DNA from: Herbidospora galbida
Lineage (GTDB): Bacteria; Actinomycetota; Actinomycetes; Streptosporangiales; Streptosporangiaceae
Assembly: GCF_005233835.1 (NCBI RefSeq)
Contig: NZ_SZQA01000001.1
Coordinates: forward strand, 496,001 to 560,000
Length of the DNA: 64,000 bases
Direction of reading: 5' to 3'
Each line of letters starts with the position of its first letter. Position 1 is the stretch's first letter. The notes beneath the pieces were generated by a model. The model saw only the letters and a list, made by a program, of their open reading frames with translations, did no database searches and was not told where the DNA came from. The translations under genes and the position numbers were made by a program. Of this stretch, positions 5,171 through 56,126 are shown one piece after another.

Positions 5171-5920
5171 GTGGCTATCAGGTTGCCGGGCGGACGCACT
5201 GTCGGGATTTTGACCGTCGGCGCGCTCGCGGGTTCGATTTTCGCCGTCGGGGGGATGGCGACCGCCTCTTCGGCTGCCGACACCGTCATCTACGCCTGTG
5301 TCAACAAGAAGACCCGTTACGCGCGCATCGTCAACGCGACCACGAAGTGCCGCGCGACCGAGACGAAGGTCACCTGGGGCGGCCAGGGCCCGCAGGGCCC
5401 GGCGGGTCTCCAGGGCATGACCGGCGCGACCGGCCCCCAGGGCCCGAAGGGTCAGACCGGCCCACAGGGTCCCAAGGGTCAGACCGGCGTCGCCGGACCG
5501 CAGGGCGCGAAGGGCGAGACCGGCCCCGCCGGCCCCCAGGGCCCGAAGGGCGAGACGGGCGCGACCGGCCCCCAGGGCCCCAAGGGTGAGGCCGGCCCCG
5601 CGGGTCCCACCGGACCGAAGGGCGCCAACGGCACCGACGGCAAGGACGGCAAGGACGGCGCCCCCGGCAGCGTCACGCCGATCGTGAAGACCGGCGCCGA
5701 GACCGTGGTCGACAGCAGCTCGGACATCGTCCCGACCGCCTGCGACCCGGGCAAGAAGGTCGTCGGCGGCGGCTACGAGATCACCTACGGCGCCGACTTC
5801 GTCAAGAACGTGTCCATGAACAAGCCGACCCAGAACGGCAACAGCACCGGCTGGGCGGTTCGTGTCACGCTCGACCACAACAGGAGCGCCAAGCTCAAGG
5901 TCTACGCCATCTGCGTCTGA
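5171..5920 (+). CDS. Secreted collagen-like repeat protein
   Basis: 249 residues, probably exported. I chose GTG 5171 because GGAAGGA lies six bases upstream; ATG 5156 is in frame but lacks an RBS. It has a signal-like hydrophobic stretch ending near ATASSAAD, then a short domain with two Cys common in actinobacterial secreted proteins ([15 protein letters not shown]), then about 31 uninterrupted Gly-X-Y triplets rich in GPQ, GPK and GET, then a globular C-terminal domain of about 75 residues with two Cys ([20 protein letters not shown], and a final Cys near the end). The Gly-X-Y part should form a triple helix and the C-terminal domain may trimerise it. Cell-surface or matrix role is inferred. 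Confidence 0.85.
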
Positions 5921-6418: not shown

Positions 6419-7104
6419 GCCCCCTGGCCCGACGCGCCACGGCCGAGTTCGCCGGGACCGGCCTGCTCGTCACCGTGGTGGTCGGGTCGGGCATCGCCGC
6501 CGCCCGCCTGTCCCCCGGCGACGTCGGCCTGCAACTGGCCGAGAACGCCGCCGCGACCGCCGCCGGCCTGGCCGTGATCATCCTGATGGTCGGACCGGTC
6601 TCGGGCGCGCACCTCAACCCCGTCGTCTCCCTCGTCGACTGGGCGCTGGGCCGACGCGACGGGACCGGCCTGTCGTCGGTGACCCTCGGGGTGTACGCGC
6701 TGGCCCAGACCACGGGCGCGGTCGGCGGGGCGGTGCTGGCCAACCTGATGTTCGATCTGCCCGCCGTCACCGTCTCCACCACCGTCCGGTCCGGCCCCTC
6801 GCTGTGGCTGGCCGAGGCGGTCGCCACCGCCGGGCTCATCGCCCTGATCCTCAGCCTGGTCCGCACCGGCCGCGCCCATCTGGCCGCCCCGGCGGTCGGG
6901 GCCTACATCGGGTCGGCCTACTGGTTCACCTCGTCCACGTCCTTCGCCAACCCGGCCGTGACCGTCGGGCGCGTCTTCAGCGACACCTTCGCCGGGATCG
7001 CGCCCGGCTCCGTCGCGCCGTTCGTCGCGGCCCAGTTCGCCGGCGCGGTCGCCGGCGCCGGCCTGGCCCTCGTCCTTCACCCCGCGTCCAAGGAGTCCGT
7101 ATGA
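6415..7104 (+). CDS. aqpS: MIP-family channel, AqpS-like arsenite channel
   Basis: 229-residue aquaglyceroporin-family membrane channel starting at TTG 6415, overlapping the arsR stop by four bases. The two pore motifs are visible as HLNPVVS (first NPA changed to NPV) and FANPAVT, with about six hydrophobic segments around them. In Sinorhizobium a homologous channel lets arsenite made by ArsC flow out of the cell and replaces the usual ArsB pump; the same role is inferred here because it lies between arsR and arsC and no arsB or acr3 is present. Its stop overlaps the arsC start as ATGA. Confidence 0.88.
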   Translation: MSPLARRATAEFAGTGLLVTVVVGSGIAAARLSPGDVGLQLAENAAATAAGLAVIILMVGPVSGAHLNPVVSLVDWALGRRDGTGLSSVTLGVYALAQTTGAVGGAVLANLMFDLPAVTVSTTVRSGPSLWLAEAVATAGLIALILSLVRTGRAHLAAPAVGAYIGSAYWFTSSTSFANPAVTVGRVFSDTFAGIAPGSVAPFVAAQFAGAVAGAGLALVLHPASKESV

Positions 7105-7517
7105 CCGCCGCCGTGCCCGAAGTACTGTTCGTCTGCGTCCACAACGCCGGGCGCTCCCAGATGGCCGCCGCCCTGCTCGACCACCACGCCAAAGGCTCCG
7201 TCGTGGTGCGGTCGGCCGGGTCGGCGCCCGCCGCGAGCGTCAATCCCGCCGTCATCGCCGTCATGGACGAGATCGGGCTCGACCTGTCGAAGGCGTTCCC
7301 CAAGCCGCTGACCGACGAGGCCGTGCAGGCATCCGACGTGGTGATCACCATGGGCTGCGGCGACGCCTGCCCGTTCTACCCGGGCAAGCGCTACCTCGAT
7401 TGGGAGCTCCCCGACCCCGCCGGGAAGGGCGTCGACGACGTGCGCCCGATCCGTGACGAGATCGAGCGCCGGGTCCTGACCTTGCTCCAGGAGCTTTCAT
7501 CGCCTATCGTCGATTGA
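7101..7517 (+). CDS. arsC: Arsenate reductase, low-molecular-weight phosphatase type
   Basis: 138 residues. Reduces arsenate to arsenite in the cytoplasm. The phosphatase P-loop CX5R is CVHNAGR at 12-18, followed by Ser. Two further cysteines in MGCGDACP (C86, C90) fit the redox cysteines of thioredoxin- or mycothiol-linked enzymes, and the catalytic Asp is in ELPDP (D105). The start ATG 7101 overlaps the aqpS stop. Whether thioredoxin or mycothiol is the reductant cannot be decided from sequence alone. Confidence 0.93.
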   Translation: MTAAVPEVLFVCVHNAGRSQMAAALLDHHAKGSVVVRSAGSAPAASVNPAVIAVMDEIGLDLSKAFPKPLTDEAVQASDVVITMGCGDACPFYPGKRYLDWELPDPAGKGVDDVRPIRDEIERRVLTLLQELSSPIVD

Positions 7518-7520
7518 CGA
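7507..7520. promoter_or_regulatory. Inverted repeat at the second arsR start
   Basis: TCGTC-GATT-GACGA is a perfect 5-bp inverted repeat overlapping the arsC stop and the second arsR start. It could be an internal operator; its half-sites resemble but do not match the upstream ars repeats. Confidence 0.35.
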
Positions 7521-7828
7521 TGAATGGACCGCTCGACCGCGACACCGCCGAGAAGTACGCCGCCTGTTTCCGCGCCCTGGCCGACGCCACCCGCGTGCAG
7601 ATCGTGACCCTGCTCGCCCGTGCCGGACGGCCGATGTCGGTGAAGGAGATCGTCGAGGCCGTCGACGTCGGCCAGTCGACCGTCTCGGCGCACCTGAAGA
7701 TCCTCTCCGACGTGCGGTTCGTCCTGGCCGACCGGCGCGGGGTCTCGCGCTTCTACCGGATCAACGAGGCCTGCGTCGACTACTTCCCGACCGCCGCCGA
7801 CGTGGTCATGGGACGCCCCATCTCCTGA
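7520..7828 (+). CDS. Second ArsR-family repressor of the ars operon
   Basis: 102 residues from ATG 7520; a TTG six bases earlier (7514) overlaps the arsC stop and is an equally possible start. The winged helix is seen in QSTVSAHLKILSDVRFVLADRR. The C-terminal ACVDYFPTAADVVMG stretch is typical of ArsR-like proteins found with arsenical-modifying genes. It precedes arsN by ten bases. Single Cys residues near the N-terminus (YAACFRAL) and in ACVDYFP may form a metalloid site. Having two ArsR proteins in one operon suggests two inputs, for example inorganic and organic arsenicals. Confidence 0.85.
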   Translation: MNGPLDRDTAEKYAACFRALADATRVQIVTLLARAGRPMSVKEIVEAVDVGQSTVSAHLKILSDVRFVLADRRGVSRFYRINEACVDYFPTAADVVMGRPIS

Positions 7829-7838
7829 GGAGACCGGC

Positions 7839-8420
7839 ATGACCGACGAGATCCACGACGATCCGCTCCCCGACCATGCCGTCGACGCGGTGATCTCCGA
7901 CTGCGTGCTCGACCTGCCCGCCCGCAGGCCCGGGTTCGCCGTCCGCGCCATGCGCGACGGCGACGCCGACGCCGTGCTGGCCGTCTATCAGGCCGGGCTC
8001 GACACCGGCGACGCCAGTTTCGAGACCACCGCTCCCACCTGGGACGACTTCACCAAGGCCAGGCTCCCCGACCACCGGCACGTCGCCGTCGACCCGGTGA
8101 CCGGAGAGGTCGCCGGGTGGATCGCCGCCTCGTCCGTCTCCGACCGGTGCGTGTACGCGGGCGTGGTCGAGCACTCCCTGTACGTCTCCCCCGCCCACCG
8201 GGGACGCGGCGTCGGAGCCCTGCTCCTGGACGCCCTCATCGCCTCGACCGAGGCCGCCGGGATCTGGACCATCCAGTCGGGGATCTTCCCCGAGAACGCC
8301 GCGAGCCTGCGCGTCCACGAGAAGGCCGGGTTCCGCCGGGTGGGCGTCCGCGAGCGCGTCGGCCGGCACCACGGCCGCTGGCGCGACGTGGTCTTCGTCG
8401 AGCGCCGCCGCGCCGACTAG
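7839..8420 (+). CDS. arsN: GNAT acetyltransferase, ArsN1-like
   Basis: 193 residues. The central part matches the phosphinothricin/arsinothricin N-acetyltransferase group (YQAGLDTGDASFETTAPTW; acetyl-CoA loop HRGRGVGALLLDAL). About 30 extra N-terminal residues precede the domain. In ars operons this family acetylates the amino group of arsinothricin and so detoxifies it; that role is inferred from context and similarity. RBS GAGGAGACC precedes the ATG. The 3' end overlaps the convergent sodC stop by four bases. Confidence 0.85.
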   Translation: MTDEIHDDPLPDHAVDAVISDCVLDLPARRPGFAVRAMRDGDADAVLAVYQAGLDTGDASFETTAPTWDDFTKARLPDHRHVAVDPVTGEVAGWIAASSVSDRCVYAGVVEHSLYVSPAHRGRGVGALLLDALIASTEAAGIWTIQSGIFPENAASLRVHEKAGFRRVGVRERVGRHHGRWRDVVFVERRRAD

Positions 8421-37578: not shown

Positions 37579-38502
37579 ATGTCACATGACATGGCCGAGT
37601 CAATCCCGCGGCTGCGGCCGGGTGACCGGGTCGCCGTGGTCGCGCCCAGCGGGCCGGTGTCGCCCGAGCGGCTGGCGTACGGCTGCGACCGCCTTCGCGC
37701 CGCCGGGCTCGACGTGGTCGTCGGCGCGCACGTCCTGGCGCGGCACGGCCTGTTCGCCGGCTCCGACGAGCAGCGGGCCGCCGATCTCACCGCCGCCTGG
37801 TGCGACGAGCGGGTCCGCGCGGTGCTGTGCGCCCGGGGCGGCTACGGCGCGTTGCGGCTGCTCGACCACCTCGACCCCGGACGGTTCGCCGCCGCCGCGC
37901 CCAAGCCGCTGGTCGGCTCCAGCGACGTGACCGTGCTGCACCGCTGGCTGGCCGAGCACACCGGCGCGGTGAGCCTCTACGGGCCGATGGTGGCCGGCAC
38001 GGCGCTGGGCACCGACCGCCTCGGTCACCGATGGGCCGGGGAGCTGATCCGGACGCTGATGTCGCCGGAGCAGACGCGGCGGCTGCACTGCCCGGACGCG
38101 GTCGAACTCGTGCCGGGACGGGCCGAGGGGCCGGTGACCGGAGGCAACCTCAATCTGCTCGCGGCCCTGCTCGGCAGCCCCGAGGCCGGGTCGGCGGCGG
38201 GGTGCGTCGTGGTGCTGGAGGACGTCAACAAGGAGGCCCACCGGCTCGACCGGTTGTTCACCCAGTTGCTGCGGGCGGGCTGGTTCGACGGCGCGGTCGG
38301 GGTGGTCGCGGGCCGGTGGCGGAACTGCGGCCCCGATCCCGACGCGATCCTCTACGAGCGCCTCGCCCCGCTGGGCGTCCCCATTTTGGCCGGGTTCGAC
38401 GTGGGGCACGGTCCCCGTCAGCTCACCGTCCCGCTCGGCGTCCCGGCCGTGCTCGACACCGGCGGCCGGTCGCTGACCTACACCGTCCCGGCCCTGGCCT
38501 GA
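37579..38502 (+). CDS. Peptidase S66, LD-carboxypeptidase
   Basis: 307 residues. The family cleaves the terminal D-Ala of muropeptide tetrapeptides in the cytoplasm (LdcA) or detoxifies microcin C-like compounds (MccF). The Ser-Glu-His triad is visible: S115 in VGSSDVT, E214 in VVLEDVNKE and H277 in DVGHGP. ARGGYGALRLL is the other conserved loop. ATG 37579 lacks a clear RBS; ATG 37591 is an alternative. The 3' end overlaps the convergent HAD gene by 25 bp. It lies 0.7 kb from a peptide-like biosynthetic operon, so a self-protection role similar to MccF should be kept in mind. Confidence 0.9.
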   Translation: MSHDMAESIPRLRPGDRVAVVAPSGPVSPERLAYGCDRLRAAGLDVVVGAHVLARHGLFAGSDEQRAADLTAAWCDERVRAVLCARGGYGALRLLDHLDPGRFAAAAPKPLVGSSDVTVLHRWLAEHTGAVSLYGPMVAGTALGTDRLGHRWAGELIRTLMSPEQTRRLHCPDAVELVPGRAEGPVTGGNLNLLAALLGSPEAGSAAGCVVVLEDVNKEAHRLDRLFTQLLRAGWFDGAVGVVAGRWRNCGPDPDAILYERLAPLGVPILAGFDVGHGPRQLTVPLGVPAVLDTGGRSLTYTVPALA

Positions 38503-39146
38503 AGGCTGAACAGGTCGTCGAGCCCGATCCCGGTCAGCGACGGCAGCACCAGGTCGGCGGCGGCCAGGTCGTGCCCGGCGGTGAGCGGGCCGGGGACCGC
38601 CACGCAGCGCAGGCCGGCCGCCTTGGCGGCGGTGACCCCGGTGGCGGTGTCCTCGATCGCGACCGCCGCCTCGGCCGTCGCGCCCAGGCCCGCCAGCGCC
38701 GCCAGGTAGACGTCCGGGGCCGGTTTGGCGGCCGCGACGTCGTCGCGGCAGAAGACCCCCGCGAACGCGGGCCGGAGCCCGAGCCGCTCCAGATGCCCCG
38801 TCACCCATTCCCGGGCCGCGCCCGAGGCGACGGCGGTGCGGACCCCGGCGTCCCGCGCCTCGGCCAGCAGTTCCCGCACGCCCGGCAGCGCCGGCAGTTC
38901 GAGGGCCAGGGCCCGCACCCGGGACCGGATCCGGAGCACCGCCGCCGGCGGATCGCCCGCGGCCTCCCCCAGGATCTGCGCGACCCGCTCGGGCCGCAGG
39001 CTCTGCTGCCCCAAGGTGGCCAGGAACGCCTTTTCGTCGAAATGGATGTCAAGGTCGGCGCACTCGGCCCGCCATCCGGCGACCACCGCCGACTCCGTGT
39101 CGACGATCACTCCGTCGAAATCGAAAACGAGAATCCGGTCCGCCAT
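38478..39146 (-). CDS. HAD-family phosphatase/phosphoglucomutase-like protein
   Basis: 222 residues from ATG 39144-39146 after AGGAGGCAC. HAD motif I is FDFDGVIVDTES, motif II lies at TAVASGAA, motif III Lys in AAKPAPDVY and motif IV in AVAIEDTATG. The cap domain type and length match beta-phosphoglucomutase-like phosphatases. It is divergent from the 6-phosphogluconate dehydrogenase gene and could act on a sugar phosphate there. Substrate unknown. Confidence 0.9.
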   Translation of the reverse strand: MADRILVFDFDGVIVDTESAVVAGWRAECADLDIHFDEKAFLATLGQQSLRPERVAQILGEAAGDPPAAVLRIRSRVRALALELPALPGVRELLAEARDAGVRTAVASGAAREWVTGHLERLGLRPAFAGVFCRDDVAAAKPAPDVYLAALAGLGATAEAAVAIEDTATGVTAAKAAGLRCVAVPGPLTAGHDLAAADLVLPSLTGIGLDDLFSLQARAGTV

Positions 39147-39254
39147 TGTGCCTCCTATTTCCGGATATGTGAATATGCCAATTTGGGCGTGTGTTTGATA
39201 GCGTGCTGAACGCGACATTTCACCGAGGCCGGGGCGCAGCGTCGGGAGGACGAA

Positions 39255-40166
39255 ATGGATATCGGGCTGGTGGGACTCGGCCGGATGGGGGCCGGTATCG
39301 CACGGCACTGGCTGCGGGACGGTCATCGGGTGGTGGGCCATGACCTCGACGACGCGGCGACCGCCGATCTGCTGGACGAAGGGCTGCACCGGGCCGCCGA
39401 CCTCGCGGCGCTGGTCGCCGCCCTGCCCGCGCCGCGAACGGTGTGGACGATGCTGCCGGCCGGTCCGCCGACGCGCGAGGTGACCGCCTACCTCGAAGAC
39501 GCTCTCGAACCGGGAGACCTCCTGATCGACGGCGGAAACACCAACTTCCACGAGACGGTCGAGCGGGCCGCCCGCTGCCGGGAGAAGGGGTTACGGTTCC
39601 TCGACGTCGGCACCTCGTCGGGGCTGCTCGGCCGGGCCGAGGGCTACTGCCTGATGGTCGGCGGCGACCCGGAACTGGCGGCGGAGACGATGCCGATCCT
39701 GCGGAGCATCGCCCCCGAGGGCGGATGTCGGTATGTCGGCCCCTCCGGCGCCGGCCACTACGTGAAAATGATCCACAACGGCATCGAATACGGGCTGCTG
39801 GAAGCCTATGCCGAAGGCTTCGAGGTGCTCAAGGCCAGCACGTACGACCTCGACCTGCCCGCCATCGCCGAACTGTGGCGGCACAACAGCCTGGTCCAGT
39901 CGCGGCTGCTCGACCTGCTCGCCAAGAAGCTCGACGCCGACCCGGAGCTGTCGAAGTACACCGACTACGTCGAAGACCTGGGCACCGGCCGGTGGGCGGT
40001 GCTGGAGGCGATCGACCGGAACGTCCCGGCCCCCGCGATGACCGCCGCCCTGCTGACACGGCTGCGCTCCCGGCAGGAGACGTCGTTCGGCGGGCAGGTC
40101 CTGTCGGCGCTGCGGGAGGAGTTCGGCGGTCACGTCGTCAACCGGCCCCATGGACCGGTGGCCTGA
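39255..40166 (+). CDS. gnd: 6-phosphogluconate dehydrogenase, decarboxylating, short type
   Basis: 303 residues, the short bacterial form. NADP-site motif GLVGLGRMGAGIARH, substrate loop IDGGNTNFHET, and the catalytic region VKMIHNGIEYGLLEAYAEGF with the active Lys are intact, so it should make ribulose 5-phosphate and NAD(P)H. GGGAGGAC precedes the ATG. Its last 17 bases overlap the next gene, so it is the first gene of the peptide-like operon. A housekeeping-type enzyme here could supply pentose or NADPH, or act on a related 3-hydroxy acid. Confidence 0.9.
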   Translation: MDIGLVGLGRMGAGIARHWLRDGHRVVGHDLDDAATADLLDEGLHRAADLAALVAALPAPRTVWTMLPAGPPTREVTAYLEDALEPGDLLIDGGNTNFHETVERAARCREKGLRFLDVGTSSGLLGRAEGYCLMVGGDPELAAETMPILRSIAPEGGCRYVGPSGAGHYVKMIHNGIEYGLLEAYAEGFEVLKASTYDLDLPAIAELWRHNSLVQSRLLDLLAKKLDADPELSKYTDYVEDLGTGRWAVLEAIDRNVPAPAMTAALLTRLRSRQETSFGGQVLSALREEFGGHVVNRPHGPVA

Positions 40167-41196
40167 CGGGAAGGTCCGGTTCCGGACCGCCACGACCCTG
40201 TCGGACCTGCCCGGCCTGGAGCCCGCCGCGTTCGACCCCGACGCGGGCGCGGCCGGCGCACCGGCCCGGCTGCTCGGCGTCGAGTCCGACGGACGGTGGC
40301 GATGCTCCTACGTGGCGGCGGAATCGGCCGGCGGCCTCGAAGCACTCGTGCCGGTCTACCGGCCGGCCGGTCGCGCCTGGCCCGACGTGGCCTACGCGCC
40401 GGACGGCTGGCCGGTCCCGGCTCCCGGGATCACCCCCGACCGCTGCCTGTTCGTCGGGGGCGTGTACGACCGCCGCACCGCCCTGCACCTGCCCGAGGCG
40501 CTGGCCCCGGAGGCGCTGCGCGAGGCCGCGCGGATCGCCGTACCGGAGGACCGCTGTCTGGTCTTCCCGTTCCTCTACACCCGCGCCCGCCGGACCGTCG
40601 ACGCCGCCACCGGCGGGTCCGTCCGGTGGTGCGTCCTGGAGCACGAGGCCCGGTTCGCGCTCGGCGAGCCTCCGTCCCGGGTGCGCGGGGTGCTGCGCCG
40701 GGACCGGCGGCTCATCGAGCGGGCCGCCACCACGGCGTCGGTCGTGCCGTGGCACGACGCCGATCCGCGCACCGCCGACCTCGTCGCCGGGCACAACCTG
40801 CGGCTGGGCCAGTTCGACCACCCCGAGTTCGTGCGCCTGCGGTACGCCCAGTGGGCCGCCTGCGCGGGCGTGGAGGTGATCGTGTTCGACGCGCGCGCCG
40901 GGTCGCACCACGGCGTGCTCACGGCGCTGGTCTGGCGCGACGGTCTCGAACTGCACGAGATCGGCCTGCCGCCGTCCGGCGACCCGGCCCGGCTGGCGCT
41001 CTACCTCGACCTGATCTTCCACCGCCCGCACGCGTACGCCCGCGCGAACGGGCTGACCGCCATCCGCGCGGGCACCGCCGCCCGGACCCCCAAGGCGTCG
41101 CGGGGCGCCGCGTTCGAGCCGCTGTACGGCGGCGTGCTCGACGCCGAGAACACCAGGCGGCTCGCGCGCGGGCCCGACCCGAGGAGTACCGGATGA
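40150..41196 (+). CDS. GNAT-fold protein, possible FemAB/BioF2-like aminoacyl transferase
   Basis: 348 residues, not firmly recognised. The second half (about 150-330) has the look of FemAB-like or BioF2-like double-GNAT proteins: a basic region RVRGVLRRDRRLIERA, then FVRLRYAQWAACAGVEVIVFDARAG, then LALYLDLIFHRPHAYARANG and KASRGAAFEPLYGG. Such enzymes transfer aminoacyl or acyl groups from tRNA, CoA or carrier proteins. It overlaps gnd by 17 bp and the carrier gene by ATGA. A role in joining the carrier-bound unit to an amine is an inference from context. Confidence 0.6.
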   Translation: MDRWPDGKVRFRTATTLSDLPGLEPAAFDPDAGAAGAPARLLGVESDGRWRCSYVAAESAGGLEALVPVYRPAGRAWPDVAYAPDGWPVPAPGITPDRCLFVGGVYDRRTALHLPEALAPEALREAARIAVPEDRCLVFPFLYTRARRTVDAATGGSVRWCVLEHEARFALGEPPSRVRGVLRRDRRLIERAATTASVVPWHDADPRTADLVAGHNLRLGQFDHPEFVRLRYAQWAACAGVEVIVFDARAGSHHGVLTALVWRDGLELHEIGLPPSGDPARLALYLDLIFHRPHAYARANGLTAIRAGTAARTPKASRGAAFEPLYGGVLDAENTRRLARGPDPRSTG

Positions 41197-41411
41197 CCCA
41201 GTCAGAGGTGGCCGGCCTGATGGCCGAGATCCTGGAAACCGACGACCTCGCGGCCGACGAGAGCTTCTTCGAGGTCGGCGGCACCTCATTCCTGGTGCTG
41301 ACGCTGATCGCCCGCATCCAGGAGCGCACCGGCGTGACCCTGCGCATGATCGACGTCATCCGCCGCCCCACCCCGGCCGGGGTGCACGCACTGGTGGACG
41401 GCCTCTCGTGA
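41193..41411 (+). CDS. Stand-alone peptidyl/acyl carrier protein
   Basis: 72 residues. Four-helix carrier fold with the phosphopantetheine attachment Ser at S32 in FFEVGGTSFLVL, then a peptidyl-carrier-like ending (RMIDVIRRPTPAGVHALV). It overlaps its neighbours on both sides (ATGA, GTGA). It should hold the residue activated by the next gene's product. A phosphopantetheinyl transferase is not encoded in the window. Confidence 0.92.
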   Translation: MTQSEVAGLMAEILETDDLAADESFFEVGGTSFLVLTLIARIQERTGVTLRMIDVIRRPTPAGVHALVDGLS

Positions 41412-42778
41412 CCGTCTGGACGGCCTTCCGGGCGCACGCCGAACGCCGTCCGGACCGTCCGGCGATCCGCTCCGACGCCGGCGTCGTCACCTACGGCGAA
41501 CTCCGGGCCCGCGCGGACGACCTCGGCTCCCGGCTGCGCGAGGTCCGCGGCGGCCTGGTCGCGCTCGACACGGGAGACCCGGCCCTGGGCGCCCTGGCCT
41601 TCCTCGCCGCCGCCCGCGCGGGGTGCGCGCTGATGCCGCTCAACCAGGACGCCCCGCCCCGCTACCGGGCGGCCGTGCTGGCGGACGCCCGGCCCTCGGC
41701 GACCCTGCGGCCGGGCGAGGCCGCGCCGCTCGACCTCGTGCCCGAACCGGGCGCCCCGAGAGCCGGGCTCGACGAGGTGGCGTACCTGCTCTACACGAGC
41801 GGCTCGACCGGCCGGCCGAAGGGCGTGCTGGTCTCCCACCGGGCGCTGGCCGACCGGCTGACCGGCCTGGCCGCCGTGCCGGGGCTGGGGGCGGGGCGGC
41901 GCATGCTGGCGATGACCGCGCTGTCGTTCGACATCTCGATCGCGGAGATGCTGCTGCCGCTGACCGTCGGCGGCACCGTGGTCGCGGCCCCGGAGGAGGC
42001 CCGCCTCGACCCGGAGATCTTCGCGGCGGCGGTGCGCCGGCACTCCCCCGACGTGCTGCAGGCGACCCCGAGTTTCTGGCGGCTGGCCGTGGCCGCCGGC
42101 TGGCGCGGCGCGCCGGAGAGCGACCTGTGGTGCGGCGGCGAGGAGCTGACCGCCGCGCTGGCCGGGCGGCTGCTCCCCCGAGGCCGCCGTCTCTGGAACG
42201 TCTACGGCCCGACCGAGGCGACCATCTGGGCCTCGGCCGATCTGGTCTCCACTCCCGACGAGGTGACCCTCGGCGCCGCGCTGCCGGGCAGCGGCATGTG
42301 CGTGTCTCCGGAGGGCGAGATCCTCCTGTACGGCCACGGCCTCGCCCTCGGCTACCTCGACCGGCCCGACCTGACGGCCGACCGCTTCCGCCTCCGCCAG
42401 ACCGGCGACGGCGTCCGGCTCTGCTACCACACGGGTGATCGAGGGCGGCGGCGCGGCGACGGCCGCATCGAGTTCCTGGGCCGCGACGACGACCAGGTCA
42501 AGCTGCGCGGGCACCGCATCGAGCTCGGCGAGATCGAGCGGACGCTGGAGACGCACGAGAGCGTGTCGGAGGCGGTCGTCGTGGTCAGCGCCCGCGACGA
42601 CCCGGCCCGGACGCATCTCACCGCGTTCGTCGTCGCCCACTCGGGCGTGGACGTCCGGGGCCTGCGCCGCTGGCTGGCCGAACGGCTGCCGGCCGCCATG
42701 CGTCCCGCGCGCATCGAACCGGTGGTGGCGCTCCCCCGGACCGCCGCGGGCAAGATCGACCGCCGGGCGTTACGGTGA
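41408..42778 (+). CDS. Stand-alone NRPS-type adenylation enzyme
   Basis: 456 residues. Core motifs are all present: A3 LLYTSGSTGRPKG, A4 FDISIAEML, A5 NVYGPTEATIW, A7 YHTGDRGRR, A8 VKLRGHRIELGEIE and A10 with Lys in PRTAAGKIDRRAL. It should activate an amino acid as adenylate and load it on the carrier encoded just upstream. The binding-pocket positions I can place by motif are Asp (A4), Ile, Ala, then Val, Ile and Trp near A5, and the A10 Lys; the Asp implies an alpha-amino-acid substrate, but its identity cannot be called. It is shorter than usual (about 500), with a compact N-terminus. Confidence 0.92.
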   Translation: MTVWTAFRAHAERRPDRPAIRSDAGVVTYGELRARADDLGSRLREVRGGLVALDTGDPALGALAFLAAARAGCALMPLNQDAPPRYRAAVLADARPSATLRPGEAAPLDLVPEPGAPRAGLDEVAYLLYTSGSTGRPKGVLVSHRALADRLTGLAAVPGLGAGRRMLAMTALSFDISIAEMLLPLTVGGTVVAAPEEARLDPEIFAAAVRRHSPDVLQATPSFWRLAVAAGWRGAPESDLWCGGEELTAALAGRLLPRGRRLWNVYGPTEATIWASADLVSTPDEVTLGAALPGSGMCVSPEGEILLYGHGLALGYLDRPDLTADRFRLRQTGDGVRLCYHTGDRGRRRGDGRIEFLGRDDDQVKLRGHRIELGEIERTLETHESVSEAVVVVSARDDPARTHLTAFVVAHSGVDVRGLRRWLAERLPAAMRPARIEPVVALPRTAAGKIDRRALR

Positions 42779-44058
42779 CCGGCCCCCTGGCGATCCTGGT
42801 CGCCGACCGGGCGTCCCTGACCCCGGTGGAGATCGTCACGGCCGCCGCGGACACCCTGCCGGTCCTGTTCGTCCTCGACGCGAAGGCGGACGACCGCCTC
42901 CGGCTGGTCGCCGAGGCCCTGGCACCCACGGTGTACGCCGACTTCACCGACGCCGACGGCTGCGCGGCCGTCATCACGAACGCCGGGGCCGGCACCGTGA
43001 CCACGTTCACCGACCGGCTCTGCCCCCTGGCCGCGCGGATCCGCCGCCTGCTGCGGCCCGCCGACGGCCACCGGCTCTGGAGCGACAAGGAGGAGCAGCG
43101 CCGCCGCCTGGTCGCCGCGGGGGTCTCCCGCGTCAGGTCGGCCGTGCTCGACCATCCGGAACAGGCCCGGACGCTCATGGCCCGATGGGGCACAGGCGTG
43201 GTGGTCAAACCGGTCGACGGCGTCGCCAGCGCCCACACCTGGCTGCTGCGCACCCCGCACGACGTCGACGCGTTCGTCGACGCGTTCGTCGACGCGTTCG
43301 TCGACGCGTTCGTCGACGCCGTCGGCGCGCCCCGGCTGTTCGCCGAGGAGTTCATCGCCGGGCTCCCCCGCGCGACGCCCCTGCCGGCCGACTACGTCTC
43401 GGTCGAGATGGTCGGGCCGCTGGCGTTCGTCACCGACCGCGCCCCGCCGGCCGCGCCGTGCCGCGAGACCGGCCTGATGTGGCCGACGTCGCTGCCGCAG
43501 AACACGGTGACCCGGCTGGTGGCCACCGCCGGCGACGCGCTCGCGGCGCTCGGGGCGGGTCCGGGGAGCTACCACGTCGAGATCAAGCCCGGATCGGACC
43601 GGGACGAGATCATCGAGGTCAACGGGCGGCTGGGCGGTTTCGTCGCCCGCGCGGCCCGGTACGGCGCCGACGTCGACGTGGCCCGGCTCGCCCTCGACGT
43701 CGCGGCCGGTTCACCAGACCTGGGAACACGCTCGATCGCCTGGCGGCGGTGCGTGGCCGTCCTGCTGTTCCCCGCGCCGCAGGCCGCGCGGCGGATCAGC
43801 CGGGCCCCCGACCGCCGGAGCCTGAGCCGCCGCCCCGGGGTGCTGGCCGTCGACGAGGTGCGCGGCGCCGGAGAGCCGTGCGACTGGCGGCGCGGCACCC
43901 ACGACGCGGTCGCCACGGTCTGGCTCGCGGGCGACGGCCATCACGAGCTCTGGGACCGGTTCCGCGACCTGGCCGGGCACCTCCACTCGGCGTTCGCCTT
44001 CGCCGACGAACGGGGCGAACCCGTGGCCGATGAGGACTGGCCCGCATGCCTGACGTGA
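42775..44058 (+). CDS. ATP-grasp carboxylate-amine ligase
   Basis: 427 residues. ATP-grasp features: WSDKEEQRRRLVAAGV (start of the ATP lid region), VVVKPVDGVASA (ATP Lys), FAEEFIAG and the Mg-binding EIIEVNGRLGG near residue 285. It probably joins a carboxylate and an amine to a peptide bond, as in carnosine-synthase-like or dipeptide ligases. Residues about 164-180 contain a fourfold VDAF repeat, encoded by a perfect 12-bp tandem repeat. GTG start overlaps the adenylation gene. Confidence 0.88.
   Translation: MTGPLAILVADRASLTPVEIVTAAADTLPVLFVLDAKADDRLRLVAEALAPTVYADFTDADGCAAVITNAGAGTVTTFTDRLCPLAARIRRLLRPADGHRLWSDKEEQRRRLVAAGVSRVRSAVLDHPEQARTLMARWGTGVVVKPVDGVASAHTWLLRTPHDVDAFVDAFVDAFVDAFVDAVGAPRLFAEEFIAGLPRATPLPADYVSVEMVGPLAFVTDRAPPAAPCRETGLMWPTSLPQNTVTRLVATAGDALAALGAGPGSYHVEIKPGSDRDEIIEVNGRLGGFVARAARYGADVDVARLALDVAAGSPDLGTRSIAWRRCVAVLLFPAPQAARRISRAPDRRSLSRRPGVLAVDEVRGAGEPCDWRRGTHDAVATVWLAGDGHHELWDRFRDLAGHLHSAFAFADERGEPVADEDWPACLT
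43264..43311 (+). repeat. 12-bp in-frame tandem repeat, four copies
   Basis: GTCGACGCGTTC repeated four times without mismatch, followed by a partial fifth copy, inside the ATP-grasp gene. Each unit adds Val-Asp-Ala-Phe. Confidence 0.95.
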
Positions 44059-45233
44059 TGACCTCGCCCGTGCGCCGCTACGTCGCCGGTTCGTCGGTGT
44101 CGGCGTTCGGAAATCAGATGGCGGCCGTCGCGCTGCCGGTGGCGCTGATCTGGCACGGCGCGAGCGCGGCCGTCCTCGGGGTGGTGCTCGGCGCGGCGAT
44201 CCTGCCCAAGACGGTGTTCCTGCTGGCCGGGGGCGTGATCGGCGACCGCCTCGACCGCCGGGCCGTGCTGGTCGCCGGGGACCTGCTGATGGCGTCCACG
44301 CAGGTCGCGACCGCCCTGCTGCTGTGGCACGGCGGCACTCGCCAGCTGCACCTGCTGGTCCTGGTCCAGATCCTGTACGGCTGCGCGAACGCCCTGGCCG
44401 TCCCCGCCCTCATCGGCGTTCTCCCGCAACTGGTGCCGGTGACCGGCCTGCAGCGGGCCAACGCCGTGCTGCGCACGGCCATGAACACGGCGGCGGTGCT
44501 CGGCCCCCCGGCCGCCGCCGGATTCGCCGCCGTGCTGAGACCGGAGTGGGCGCTGCTGGCGAACGCGGTGACGTTCCTGGTGTCGGCCGTGGCGGTGGCC
44601 GGGCTGCCGAAACTGTCCGCCCCGGCCGAACGCGCGTCGTTCGCGCGGGAACTGGCCGCCGGGTGGACGGTGTTCCGCCGCACGACCTGGGTGTGGCTGA
44701 TGGTCGGATCGTTCGCGATCTACCAGGCCACCGTGCTGCCGGTGGTGTTCGTCATCGGGCCCCTGATCACCGGGGACGCGGGCGGATGGGCGGCGGTGCT
44801 CACGGCGCGCAGCGTCGGCGCCATCGCCGGAGGCCTGCTGCTCCTGCGCTGGCGTCCGCGCCGGCCGGTCGCCCTGGCCTGCGCGCTGCTGCTGCTCGAC
44901 CTGCCGTTCCTGCTGGGCCTGACCGCCGGGCTCGGCGTGGTGGCGCTGGTGCTCGCCTCGCTCGTGGCGAGCGTGGGGCTGGTCGCGGCGGACACGCTGT
45001 GGGAGTCGGCGCTGCAGGAGAACGTCGACCCCGCCTACATCTCGCGGATCAGCTCCTACGACTGGATGGGGTCGGTGTTCTTCGCCCCGCTCGGTTACCT
45101 GGCGGTCGGGGCGGTGGCCGCGACCGCCGGCACGTCGGCGACGGTCGTCGCGGTCACCGTCGTGCACGCCGTCATCCACCTGTCGCTCCCGCTGGCCCGG
45201 CCGATCCTGGCCGTGCGGCGGGCGTCGTCGTGA
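44046..45233 (+). CDS. MFS exporter of the biosynthetic operon
   Basis: 395 residues with about 10-12 hydrophobic segments; the conserved MFS loop GVIGDRLDRRAVLVAGDLLM lies between helices 2 and 3. It resembles the enterobactin-exporter/MefA (DHA3) group. It overlaps the ATP-grasp gene (ATG 44046; ATG 44058 also possible), so it likely exports the product of the operon and gives self-resistance. Confidence 0.9.
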   Translation: MPDVMTSPVRRYVAGSSVSAFGNQMAAVALPVALIWHGASAAVLGVVLGAAILPKTVFLLAGGVIGDRLDRRAVLVAGDLLMASTQVATALLLWHGGTRQLHLLVLVQILYGCANALAVPALIGVLPQLVPVTGLQRANAVLRTAMNTAAVLGPPAAAGFAAVLRPEWALLANAVTFLVSAVAVAGLPKLSAPAERASFARELAAGWTVFRRTTWVWLMVGSFAIYQATVLPVVFVIGPLITGDAGGWAAVLTARSVGAIAGGLLLLRWRPRRPVALACALLLLDLPFLLGLTAGLGVVALVLASLVASVGLVAADTLWESALQENVDPAYISRISSYDWMGSVFFAPLGYLAVGAVAATAGTSATVVAVTVVHAVIHLSLPLARPILAVRRASS

Positions 45234-45248
45234 AGAGAGGAATCGACC

Positions 45249-46295
45249 ATGGAGGACTACCTGCGGTCGCGGTGGCGGCGGGTCGCGCCCGGGTCGGGCG
45301 ACGGCTTCCTGACCGGCCCCGGCGGCGTGGCGGCGATGGTCGCCTTCGTGGTGGGCCTGCAGCAGTCGGGTCTCCCGGTCAGCATGCGCGACCTGCTCCG
45401 GTCGCCGACCGTGCCGCTGCTGGCGGAGGCCCTGCGGGACCGGGAGGCCGGTGCGCCCGGCGAGTATCCGGCGTTCGCCGACCTGTGGGAGGGGAGCAGG
45501 TCGGTGTGGTCGACCGAGGTCGACACGCTGGTGCCACTCGCCGACGGCGCCGGCCTCCCGCTGTTCTTCGTCCACACCGGCCTCGGGCAGGTGCGGTTCG
45601 TCCAGGGGGTCGTGGACGACTTCCGGCGCGGCCGGCCGGTCTACGGGATCGAGGCGATCGGGCTGCGCGGCCGGACGCGGCCCCCGTCGTCGATGGTGGA
45701 GATCGCCGACCAGTACGTCGCCCAGATCCGCCGCGTCCAGCCCCACGGCCCCTACTCGATCGGCGGGTTCTGCCTGGGCAGCCACGTGGCGTTCGAGATG
45801 GCCCACCGGCTCACGGCGGCGGGCGAGGAGGTGCCCGTCCTGGCCCTGATGCCTTCGGCGTTCTCGCTGGACGCGGGCGGGGTGAACTCGATCAGGCCGG
45901 GCGTACGGCAGCGGCCGGCCGGGGTCGGGCCGGGAGACCTCTACCTCGAACGGCTCGCCTACGTGCAGCTCATGTTCGGCGACCACGACCTGGCCGCGAA
46001 CCGCGCGGAGGTGCTCGACGTCTTCGAGGAGACCTTCCGGCTCGACGGCGTCAAGCCGGAGGACTTCTTCTGGCACGCCGTGGTGGCCGCCGTGGGCGCG
46101 TTCGCGCAGGAGAACTACGACCCCCGGCCGTACCGGGGACCGGCCCTGGTCTTCCAGACGGCGCGGACCGCGACCGGCGAGGCCGCCGACTGGTCGCCCG
46201 TGGCCCCGAACGCGCGGAACGTCGTCCTCGACGAGGAGGACAGCCTGGCCCTCATGCGGACCCCGGAGTTCGCCGACGCCGTGGCCCTGCCTTAG
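45249..46295 (+). CDS. Atypical thioesterase fused to a degenerate carrier domain
   Basis: 348 residues. The first 62 residues look like a carrier domain but the GGxS site reads TGPGGVAAM, without the Ser; PTVPLLAEAL closes the domain. From about 92 on it is an alpha/beta-hydrolase thioesterase (PLFFVHTGLGQVRFV, then YSIGGFCLGSHVAFEMAHRL). The nucleophile position is Cys (C175) instead of Ser, and near the C-terminus, where thioesterases have GDHxxM, it has DEEDSLALM with no His. RBS AGAGGAA, 15 bp after the exporter gene. It may use a modified triad for transfer, or may not be catalytic. Confidence 0.8.
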   Translation: MEDYLRSRWRRVAPGSGDGFLTGPGGVAAMVAFVVGLQQSGLPVSMRDLLRSPTVPLLAEALRDREAGAPGEYPAFADLWEGSRSVWSTEVDTLVPLADGAGLPLFFVHTGLGQVRFVQGVVDDFRRGRPVYGIEAIGLRGRTRPPSSMVEIADQYVAQIRRVQPHGPYSIGGFCLGSHVAFEMAHRLTAAGEEVPVLALMPSAFSLDAGGVNSIRPGVRQRPAGVGPGDLYLERLAYVQLMFGDHDLAANRAEVLDVFEETFRLDGVKPEDFFWHAVVAAVGAFAQENYDPRPYRGPALVFQTARTATGEAADWSPVAPNARNVVLDEEDSLALMRTPEFADAVALP

Positions 46296-46304
46296 CCGAC
46301 ACGC

Positions 46305-46323
46305 CGCGAGGCAACTCCTCGCG
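46305..46323 (+). terminator. Terminator of the biosynthetic operon
   Basis: CGCGAGG pairs with CCTCGCG (46305-46311 with 46317-46323), loop CAACT, nine bases after the thioesterase stop. Confidence 0.55.
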
Positions 46324-54954: not shown

Positions 54955-55046
54955 GTGAACCGTCTCACTTAGCGGTCCCCCGCTTCTCACAAACGCGTTT
55001 CCGGATTATGAACGGCGTGACAACTTCTCACACCGGAAGGAAACCC

Positions 55047-56126
55047 GTGACGCGATTATCAAGGCTCTTGATGGCGGTTGCGATCGCCCTCGGGCTCGTG
55101 CAGGTCGCCACGAGCCCCGCGCAGGCCACCGTCCCCAACCGCTGGGGCTACGCCTACGTCGACGTCCCCGCCGGAATCCCCAGCCTTGCCCACCAGGCTG
55201 GAAGCTGGCCGGGCGGCTTCAACGTCAGCGTGACCCCGGGCGTGCCCGGCGAGACGATCGTCCGGTTCCCGCAGATCGCGGGCCCCGGCGGCGTCGCCCA
55301 CGCCACGGCGGTGGCCAACGCGCCCTACATCTGCCAGGTCGCCAAGTGGGTGCCGGTCGGCACCGACCAGATCGTCGTGGTCAGGTGTCACCAGTTCGGC
55401 GGCGCGCCCGTCACCACGCCGTTCACGGTCACCTGGTCGGAGAGCACGCCCCCCATGGTCGGCCCTGCCGGGCAGGGCTTCGGGTACGTGCACTACAACG
55501 GCGGGACCATCGCCTCCTACAACTCCGCGTTCGGCGCCAACCTCGTCAGTGTGCTGGGCGTGGGCTGGTACAAGGTCGACCTGAACGGTCTCGGCTCCGC
55601 GGCCCCGGCCGGCAACATCCAGGTGACGGCGCAGAACGACCTGACCCAGGCCAGATGCAAGGTCGTCAACTGGATCCCGGGCGCGGCGGTCCAACAGATC
55701 GAAGTACGGTGCTTCAACGCGGTGAACACCCCGATGCACTCCGGCTGGAGCCTGACCTACCAGCGGGAGCGCAACATCAACGGGCGCTGGGTGCCGCCGA
55801 AGGCGTTCGCGTACACCTTCGATCACACGCCCGCCAACCCGGGGCCCTACGCGCCGGCCCCCGCCGGGATCAACTACAACTCGCAGAGCAGCACCAACAC
55901 CGTACGGACGTCCGGCACGGGCCTGCGCATGGTCACGTTCCCCAGAGTGGGCTACGCGATCGACCACGTGCAGGTGACGGCGTACGGGAACAACCCTGAC
56001 CACTGCAACCTGCAGACGTTGTGGAACACCAGCGGCGCGGTCGCCACGGTGCGCAACGTGCAGTGCTGGACGGGGGTGACGCGCGTCGACCGCGCGTCGT
56101 TCGTGTCGTACACCTCCACGCAGTAA
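55047..56126 (+). CDS. Secreted protein with three beta-rich repeats
   Basis: 359 residues from GTG 55047, which follows GGAAGGAA; an upstream ATG at 55008 lacks an RBS. A clear signal peptide (about 1-26, ending SPAQA) precedes three repeats of about 105 residues. Each begins with an aromatic GYAY-like strand (WGYAYVDV, FGYVHYNG, FAYTFDHT), contains VTA or ATAVA followed by a Cys, then a second Cys in VRCHQF, VRCFNA or VQCWTG. One disulfide per repeat is likely. I do not recognise the family; similar repeat proteins are common in actinomycete secretomes. Confidence 0.8.
   Translation: MTRLSRLLMAVAIALGLVQVATSPAQATVPNRWGYAYVDVPAGIPSLAHQAGSWPGGFNVSVTPGVPGETIVRFPQIAGPGGVAHATAVANAPYICQVAKWVPVGTDQIVVVRCHQFGGAPVTTPFTVTWSESTPPMVGPAGQGFGYVHYNGGTIASYNSAFGANLVSVLGVGWYKVDLNGLGSAAPAGNIQVTAQNDLTQARCKVVNWIPGAAVQQIEVRCFNAVNTPMHSGWSLTYQRERNINGRWVPPKAFAYTFDHTPANPGPYAPAPAGINYNSQSSTNTVRTSGTGLRMVTFPRVGYAIDHVQVTAYGNNPDHCNLQTLWNTSGAVATVRNVQCWTGVTRVDRASFVSYTSTQ

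Follow-up and report, generated by a model that had tools for sequence, protein, structure and literature searches.

A conserved gene block of Herbidospora galbida uniting stand-alone adenylation and carrier proteins, a GNAT-fold transferase, and an ATP-grasp ligase is a candidate condensation-free amide cluster

The bacilysin ligase BacD/YwfE joins free amino acids, and the butirosin side-chain system BtrI/BtrJ/BtrH comprises a carrier protein, an ATP-grasp enzyme, and a separate acyl transferase. The peptidyl transferase of closthioamide assembly is of the papain-like type. In the accessible part of PMC2922099, BtrH is described as papain-like, and the available text of PMC6772006 gives closthioamide a carrier/ATP-grasp logic that is independent of nonribosomal peptide synthetases (NRPSs) and is itself partly predicted. 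In pacidamycin assembly, PacB acts on a PacH-anchored chain, according to the portion of PMC4052509 at hand. Here, we analyze a gene block, at positions 37579 to 46295, in a window of 64,000 nucleotides from the soil actinomycete Herbidospora galbida (NZ_SZQA01000001.1, 496,001-560,000; all coordinates are positions within this window). We propose, with a confidence somewhat short of an even chance, that this block is a dedicated condensation-free cluster in which a small amide is built on one carrier. The product is likely to be either a short peptide or a small molecule that carries an aminoacyl group, and it probably contains glycine and is exported.

The original prediction for this DNA described seven genes on one strand that overlap or nearly touch, and all seven open reading frames (ORFs) lie on the plus strand where they had been placed. 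These are gnd, the cluster copy of a GndA-type 6-phosphogluconate dehydrogenase gene (39255..40166), followed by genes for a double-GNAT Fem/PacB-like aminoacyltransferase (40150..41196), a stand-alone peptidyl carrier protein (PCP) with its Ser (41193..41411, start read from the DNA), a stand-alone adenylation (A) enzyme with predicted glycine specificity (41408..42778), an ATP-grasp protein modeled as a BacD/YwfE-type l-amino acid ligase (42775..44058), a major facilitator superfamily (MFS) exporter (44046..45233), and a thioesterase (TE)-like protein whose carrier-like N terminus, read by eye, lacks the Ser (45249..46295; PF00975 and alignments). Successive overlaps from gnd through the MFS gene are 17, 4, 4, 4, and 13 nucleotides, and a gap of 15 nucleotides separates the MFS and TE genes. 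Ten window proteins were scanned against Pfam and NCBIfam. Pfam cut-offs were exceeded by PCP (PF00550, 5e-12), A (PF00501 and PF13193), MFS (PF07690), and TE, and two NCBIfam cut-offs were exceeded by gnd (NF007161, 381.6 versus 271 bits; TIGR00872, 320.1 versus 297.2 bits), the latter match placing it in the GndA-type, NAD-dependent 6-phosphogluconate dehydrogenase family. Matches of A to TIGR01733 and of MFS to TIGR00900 fell under the NCBIfam cut-offs. These five proteins were named by family profiles, and the GNAT-like and ATP-grasp proteins were placed by structure models. The condensation domain PF00668 had zero matches among the ten window proteins in Pfam. Of the modular-NRPS domains, A and carrier are present among the scanned proteins and condensation is not, and the predicted single A/PCP/ATP-grasp/GNAT-fold set lacking a condensation domain was upheld by the Pfam scan and the structure models.

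The seven-gene unit was recovered as described, and the conserved unit proved to be larger, starting at 37579 with the gene for an S66 peptidase of the LdcA/MccF family (37579..38502, plus strand; PF02016/PF17676). This candidate self-immunity gene, which had been noted near the operon, falls inside the conserved block. A HAD-family phosphatase gene (38478..39146, minus strand; Pfam/NCBIfam HAD; start codon picked by eye) is divergent from the operon. The intervening region (39147..39254), presumed to hold the promoter(s), looks similar by eye in the window and in loci L034, L036, and L037; the sole promoter-like pattern match near it sits on the minus strand. A terminator had been called at the operon end. 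A strong hairpin does lie 3' of the TE gene (46305-46323), with no U-run after it, and the pattern scan did not report an intrinsic terminator at this end.

All genes from S66 through HAD, gnd, GNAT, PCP, A, ATP-grasp, MFS, and TE occur in the same order in 4/4 ortholog loci (L034 to L037). Their products are 74 to 99% identical to those of the four other genomes. The whole block is present in five Herbidospora/Acrocarpospora genomes, the window included, and gene order and identity support its treatment as one inherited block. In L036 and L037, similarity to the window runs from 37610/37618 to 46280/46285, that is, from S66 to TE, and the surroundings differ. Between gnd and the GNAT gene, these two loci (2/5) also have a pair of genes, one for a Gfo/Idh oxidoreductase and one for a protein of the nucleoside-hydrolase family. 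The window has the start codon of the GNAT gene within the 3' end of gnd, an arrangement that would fit deletion of this pair. The nucleoside-hydrolase-family protein occurs in 1/7 Herbidospora genomes, and weaker Gfo/Idh relatives (at most 34 to 36% identity) occur in 7/7. In the cassette-free Herbidospora genomes G130, G149, and G163, the matches listed to S66 and to gnd through TE are all of low identity, and G149 retains the HAD gene at 83% DNA identity. Decay of the cassette is visible as remnants in three genomes: a 27-nucleotide scar of the TE end before DUF4331 in G163 (L135, about 5828-5854; 25/27 nucleotides kept), an internal deletion in G106 (L158, 10104-12657; 79 matched S66 residues followed by MFS and TE), and a TE tail fragment consisting of the last 52 residues in G112 (L160, 7869-8024).

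The transferase matched no Pfam or NCBIfam family, and a search of the PDB by sequence gave nothing useful; a distant relative in L039 matches Pfam Acetyltransf_6 just under the cut-off. AlphaFold2 models of the transferase and the ATP-grasp protein were compared with the PDB by Foldseek. The best matches of the transferase model (predicted local distance difference test [pLDDT] score of 87) were Sba18/Sbb17, which are aminoacyl-tRNA-dependent peptide synthases, followed by MprF/aa-PGS and FemX (E values of 1e-10 to 1e-8), with template modeling (TM) scores of about 0.5 and 10 to 14% identity over the top matches. The model and the Foldseek matches agree on the double-GNAT fold of Fem/PacB-type enzymes, and the protein models as a Fem/PacB/Sba18-type aminoacyltransferase. 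Because the structures matched best are those of aminoacyltransferases, an acetyltransferase was not favored, although tandem acetyl-GNATs do appear at lower Foldseek rank. K315, a candidate counterpart of FemX Lys305, is invariant in 10/10 sequences, and the accessible part of PMC12945691 names a catalytic Lys for FemX and DhpH-C. The likeness to pacidamycin PacB/PacH would lie in a Fem-like aminoacyltransferase acting on a carrier-anchored chain (PMC4052509 and PMC12945691, each in the portion available); unlike pacidamycin, the present locus has a linked ATP-grasp ligase, gnd, and S66 in a block without a condensation domain. The best structural match links the locus to the streptothricin relatives such as BD-12 (Orf11/Sba18/Sbb17), in which Orf11 transfers glycine. 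Orf11 takes Gly-tRNA, whereas an A/PCP pair with a glycine-type code is linked here.

The ATP-grasp protein scored 20.8 bits in Pfam, under the cut-off of 27 bits. Its model (pLDDT score of 80) had YwfE/BacD as the top Foldseek match (TM scores of 0.75 to 0.77); the top four comprised three YwfE/BacD entries and the Bacillus licheniformis ligase BL00235, and RizA was also matched. The model is nearest in fold to BacD-type l-amino acid ligases, and the protein models as a BacD/YwfE-type amino acid ligase. K145, E269, E281, and N283 are invariant in 8/8 sequences. Where BacD joins free amino acids, the ATP-grasp gene is linked here to a carrier protein. Within it, at 43263-43319, a 12-bp repeat, CGTCGACGCGTT, is present in 4.8 perfect copies encoding repeated DAFV and is absent from the four orthologues.

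The PCP motif GG[TSN]S was found in 10/10 PCPs read. The A specificity code, DIAQWGVIWK, is identical in six loci, namely, the window, L034 to L037, and L045 (Paractinoplanes), and L083, L084, and L085 have D..QWGLIWK. The best single-stretch PDB matches of the A enzyme, 4zxh (224.7 bits) and 5u89 (223.4 bits), are structures that we take to be glycine activating; a gramicidin synthase entry ranks where it does by summing two domains, and both entries above score higher as single stretches. In the same genome, motif rules extracted 14 A domains from 11 stretches, with several codes gapped, and DILQLGVIW was read in two A domains of a 2144-residue frame, one of a 1001-residue frame, and one of a 1409-residue frame (299 and 301 taken from a second reading by eye; tenth position not read, Lys written by default). 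The pocket agrees with these glycine-predicted domains at 7/9 read positions, and the predicted substrate is glycine or a similar compound, the pocket being changed at two positions. By its length and domain layout, the 2144-residue frame fits the protein given as Agly/T-C/T-C/Agly/T in PMC4599437 (Table 2), the A substrates of which are antiSMASH predictions. Similar to closthioamide assembly, in the available text of PMC6772006, the locus combines a stand-alone carrier, an activating enzyme, an ATP-grasp protein, and a separate peptidyl transferase; the differences are that the transferase is GNAT-fold here and that there is one carrier instead of two. Neither the AANH thioamide synthetase nor the papain-like peptidyl transferase family was found among the ten window proteins in Pfam and NCBIfam. 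The butirosin system likewise has a carrier, an ATP-grasp enzyme, and a separate acyl transferase, but an adenylation enzyme is present here and BtrH is papain-like.

The TE-like protein has neither the Ser nucleophile nor the catalytic His of NRPS thioesterases. A GFC[L/M]G motif, with Cys for Ser in GxSxG, occurs in 5/5 cassette TEs and in the G106 copy (L143), and the catalytic-His position near the C terminus is D or S in 5/5. Of 14 other TE domains, 9 have a Ser nucleophile and 5 a Cys; the His is present in 11, being shifted by a few columns in one of them (L144). The three without His (L148, L150, and L153, from three genomes of one other genus) all have GGFC. The Cys/no-His kind of TE thus occurs outside the cassette too, and these proteins may form a Cys-type TE subfamily.

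Beyond the close relatives, GNAT relatives were found in 25/297 genomes searched, 17 of them with weak or partial matches, among which G106 was inspected further. An ATP-grasp match at an E value of ≤1e-12 was found in 142/341 genomes, from which the flanks of 16 further ATP-grasp places were retrieved; a genome scan with alignment A3 gave seven loci. A class-level search at the same threshold yielded 4/394 genomes, namely, the genome under study and three weak partial matches, and a plasmid search gave a single Nonomuraea record (37% coverage) without an annotated feature at that place. The transferase, PCP, A, ATP-grasp, and MFS genes form a core found together, in varying order, in 9/11 examined loci having a GNAT relative of at least about 30% identity (the window, L034 to L037, L045, L039, L040, and L082). 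The decayed G106 pieces were left out of this count, and L038 and L047, one Sphaerisporangium album locus retrieved twice, were counted once. The two loci lacking the full set are L046, in whose 18 kb no other core member was matched, and the S. album locus, which has an A match and, some 16 kb off on the same contig, an ATP-grasp relative. In L039, A is followed by a condensation domain, of which L082 has a homologue. L045 contains, downstream, a Gfo/Idh-family gene of its own; its PEP (phosphoenolpyruvate)-mutase-like neighbor was rejected as a phosphonate sign, the best score being methylisocitrate-lyase-like and well under that cut-off.

In the proposed pathway, the A enzyme would adenylate glycine and load the PCP, and the Fem/PacB-like transferase, by fold and precedent, would extend the tethered glycine at its amine with an amino acid from aminoacyl-tRNA, as PacB does with its substrate on a carrier. 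The BacD-like ATP-grasp enzyme, on similar grounds, would join a further amino acid with ATP, the Cys-type TE-like protein would handle release or transfer, the MFS protein would export the product, and S66 would protect the producer. The gnd and HAD products and, in L036 and L037, the Gfo/Idh and nucleoside-hydrolase-family proteins may supply or process a sugar-derived partner. Several observations weigh against this scheme. The TM scores of the transferase are modest (0.51 to 0.56 in the top three, at 13 to 14% identity), the active site of the TE-like protein is atypical, and the assignment of glycine is predicted and leans in turn on predictions. The A code of L039, L040, and L082 differs (DAFDWSNGVK). 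In Streptomyces, the 18 kb of L046 contain a GNAT relative but no match to A, PCP, or ATP-grasp, and L083 and L084 carry ATP-grasp-PCP-A with no GNAT match; given this separability, the PCP of the block may play no part in what the transferase does. Finally, an amine-forming enzyme was not seen in the block.

The GNAT-fold enzyme might instead take glycyl-S-PCP as its donor and, much as Orf11 glycylates streptothrisamine, glycylate a sugar- or nucleoside-derived amine, with the ATP-grasp enzyme capping the product. This would suit the nearest solved folds, Sba18/Sbb17, two of whose three entries are complexed with streptothrisamine; the linkage of a dedicated A/PCP pair with a glycine-type code to the transferase; and a sugar part suggested by gnd, HAD, Gfo/Idh, and nucleoside-hydrolase family genes. 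In the accessible part of PMC12945691, Orf11 makes glycylthricin, a parallel for glycylation, but it does so using Gly-tRNA, and the GNAT-fold enzymes named there use aminoacyl-tRNA. In addition, the L046 relative has no PCP match nearby, and aminosugar genes were not seen in the block. We regard this route as less likely than the proposed pathway. Alternatively, A, PCP, and ATP-grasp could make one acyl piece while the GNAT-fold enzyme, with aminoacyl-tRNA, bonds the free product separately, the two sharing only an operon. The triad and the GNAT gene are each found without the other; however, both modules stand together in the 9 of 11 examined loci, which makes such independence quite improbable.

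The preferred reading, that of a dedicated cluster, includes gnd, HAD, and S66. The cluster gnd is a third homologue: the other two are present in all seven Herbidospora genomes (47 to 48% and 38 to 39% identical), and the block copy is found in 4/4 cassette-positive and 0/3 cassette-negative ones. Within Herbidospora, this third copy is dedicated to the cassette and tracks it. The original prediction had made gnd a defining member and had named unlinked gnd in homologous loci as evidence against itself. In part this was found, since gnd, S66, and TE had no match in the distant core loci L039, L040, L045, and L082; gnd was thus dropped as a core gene for distant loci and retained as a lineage partner. 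The PDB relatives of S66 are LdcA-type enzymes first and MccF next, and these and Pfam place it in the family of MccF immunity proteins, so that it is possibly the self-immunity factor of the producer. That gnd, HAD, and S66 are instead housekeeping neighbors of a GNAT-to-TE cluster, as core loci without a gnd or S66 match and the HAD gene of cassette-free G149 might suggest, is the least probable alternative given the distribution of the third gnd copy and the inclusion of S66 and HAD in the DNA common to L036 and L037.

Around the block, L037 also shares a 0.7-kb stretch from window 30.2 kb, and in L041/L044 window similarity extends to 50.9 kb. The downstream DUF4331 and flavin adenine dinucleotide (FAD) monooxygenase genes were rejected as cluster members: they occur together in cassette-free G163 and lie outside the DNA common to L036 and L037. 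Window positions 54960-56119 are ~77 to 79% similar to DNA adjoining S66 in L034, L035, L041, and L044, and also to L135, and appear to be a neighbor that moved or was duplicated. Among the distant loci, L084 (4887-12222) has, as neighbors of its triad, an ORF of the lantibiotic-dehydratase-N-terminal family and a short-chain dehydrogenase. The L046 GNAT relative (7007-8098; 39%) lies near a biopterin-dependent aromatic hydroxylase, serine hydroxymethyltransferase, and a class III aminotransferase, possibly a different cluster. The L038/L047 stretch holds an A enzyme and FkbH-like, ketoacyl synthase-like, and acyl-CoA-dehydrogenase-like ORFs (ORF names by eye).

Literature searches, which did not extend to MIBiG, the 2009 survey of amidoligases by Iyer and colleagues, or the bulk of the subscription literature, found no described cluster with this gene set. 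The parts are already known, and it is their combination that these searches did not find described. The 2015 Herbidospora NRPS survey left out single-domain NRPS genes and would therefore miss this block. Tentatively, and with our judgment leaning against it, the locus may be read more broadly as an amide factory working in two currencies. A GNAT-fold transferase would be wired to a dedicated glycyl-PCP that serves either as a donor that replaces aminoacyl-tRNA or as the acceptor of a tRNA-borne amino acid, together with a carrier-linked BacD-like ligase. Such an operon would replace condensation domains and would recur as an exchangeable core among actinomycetes.

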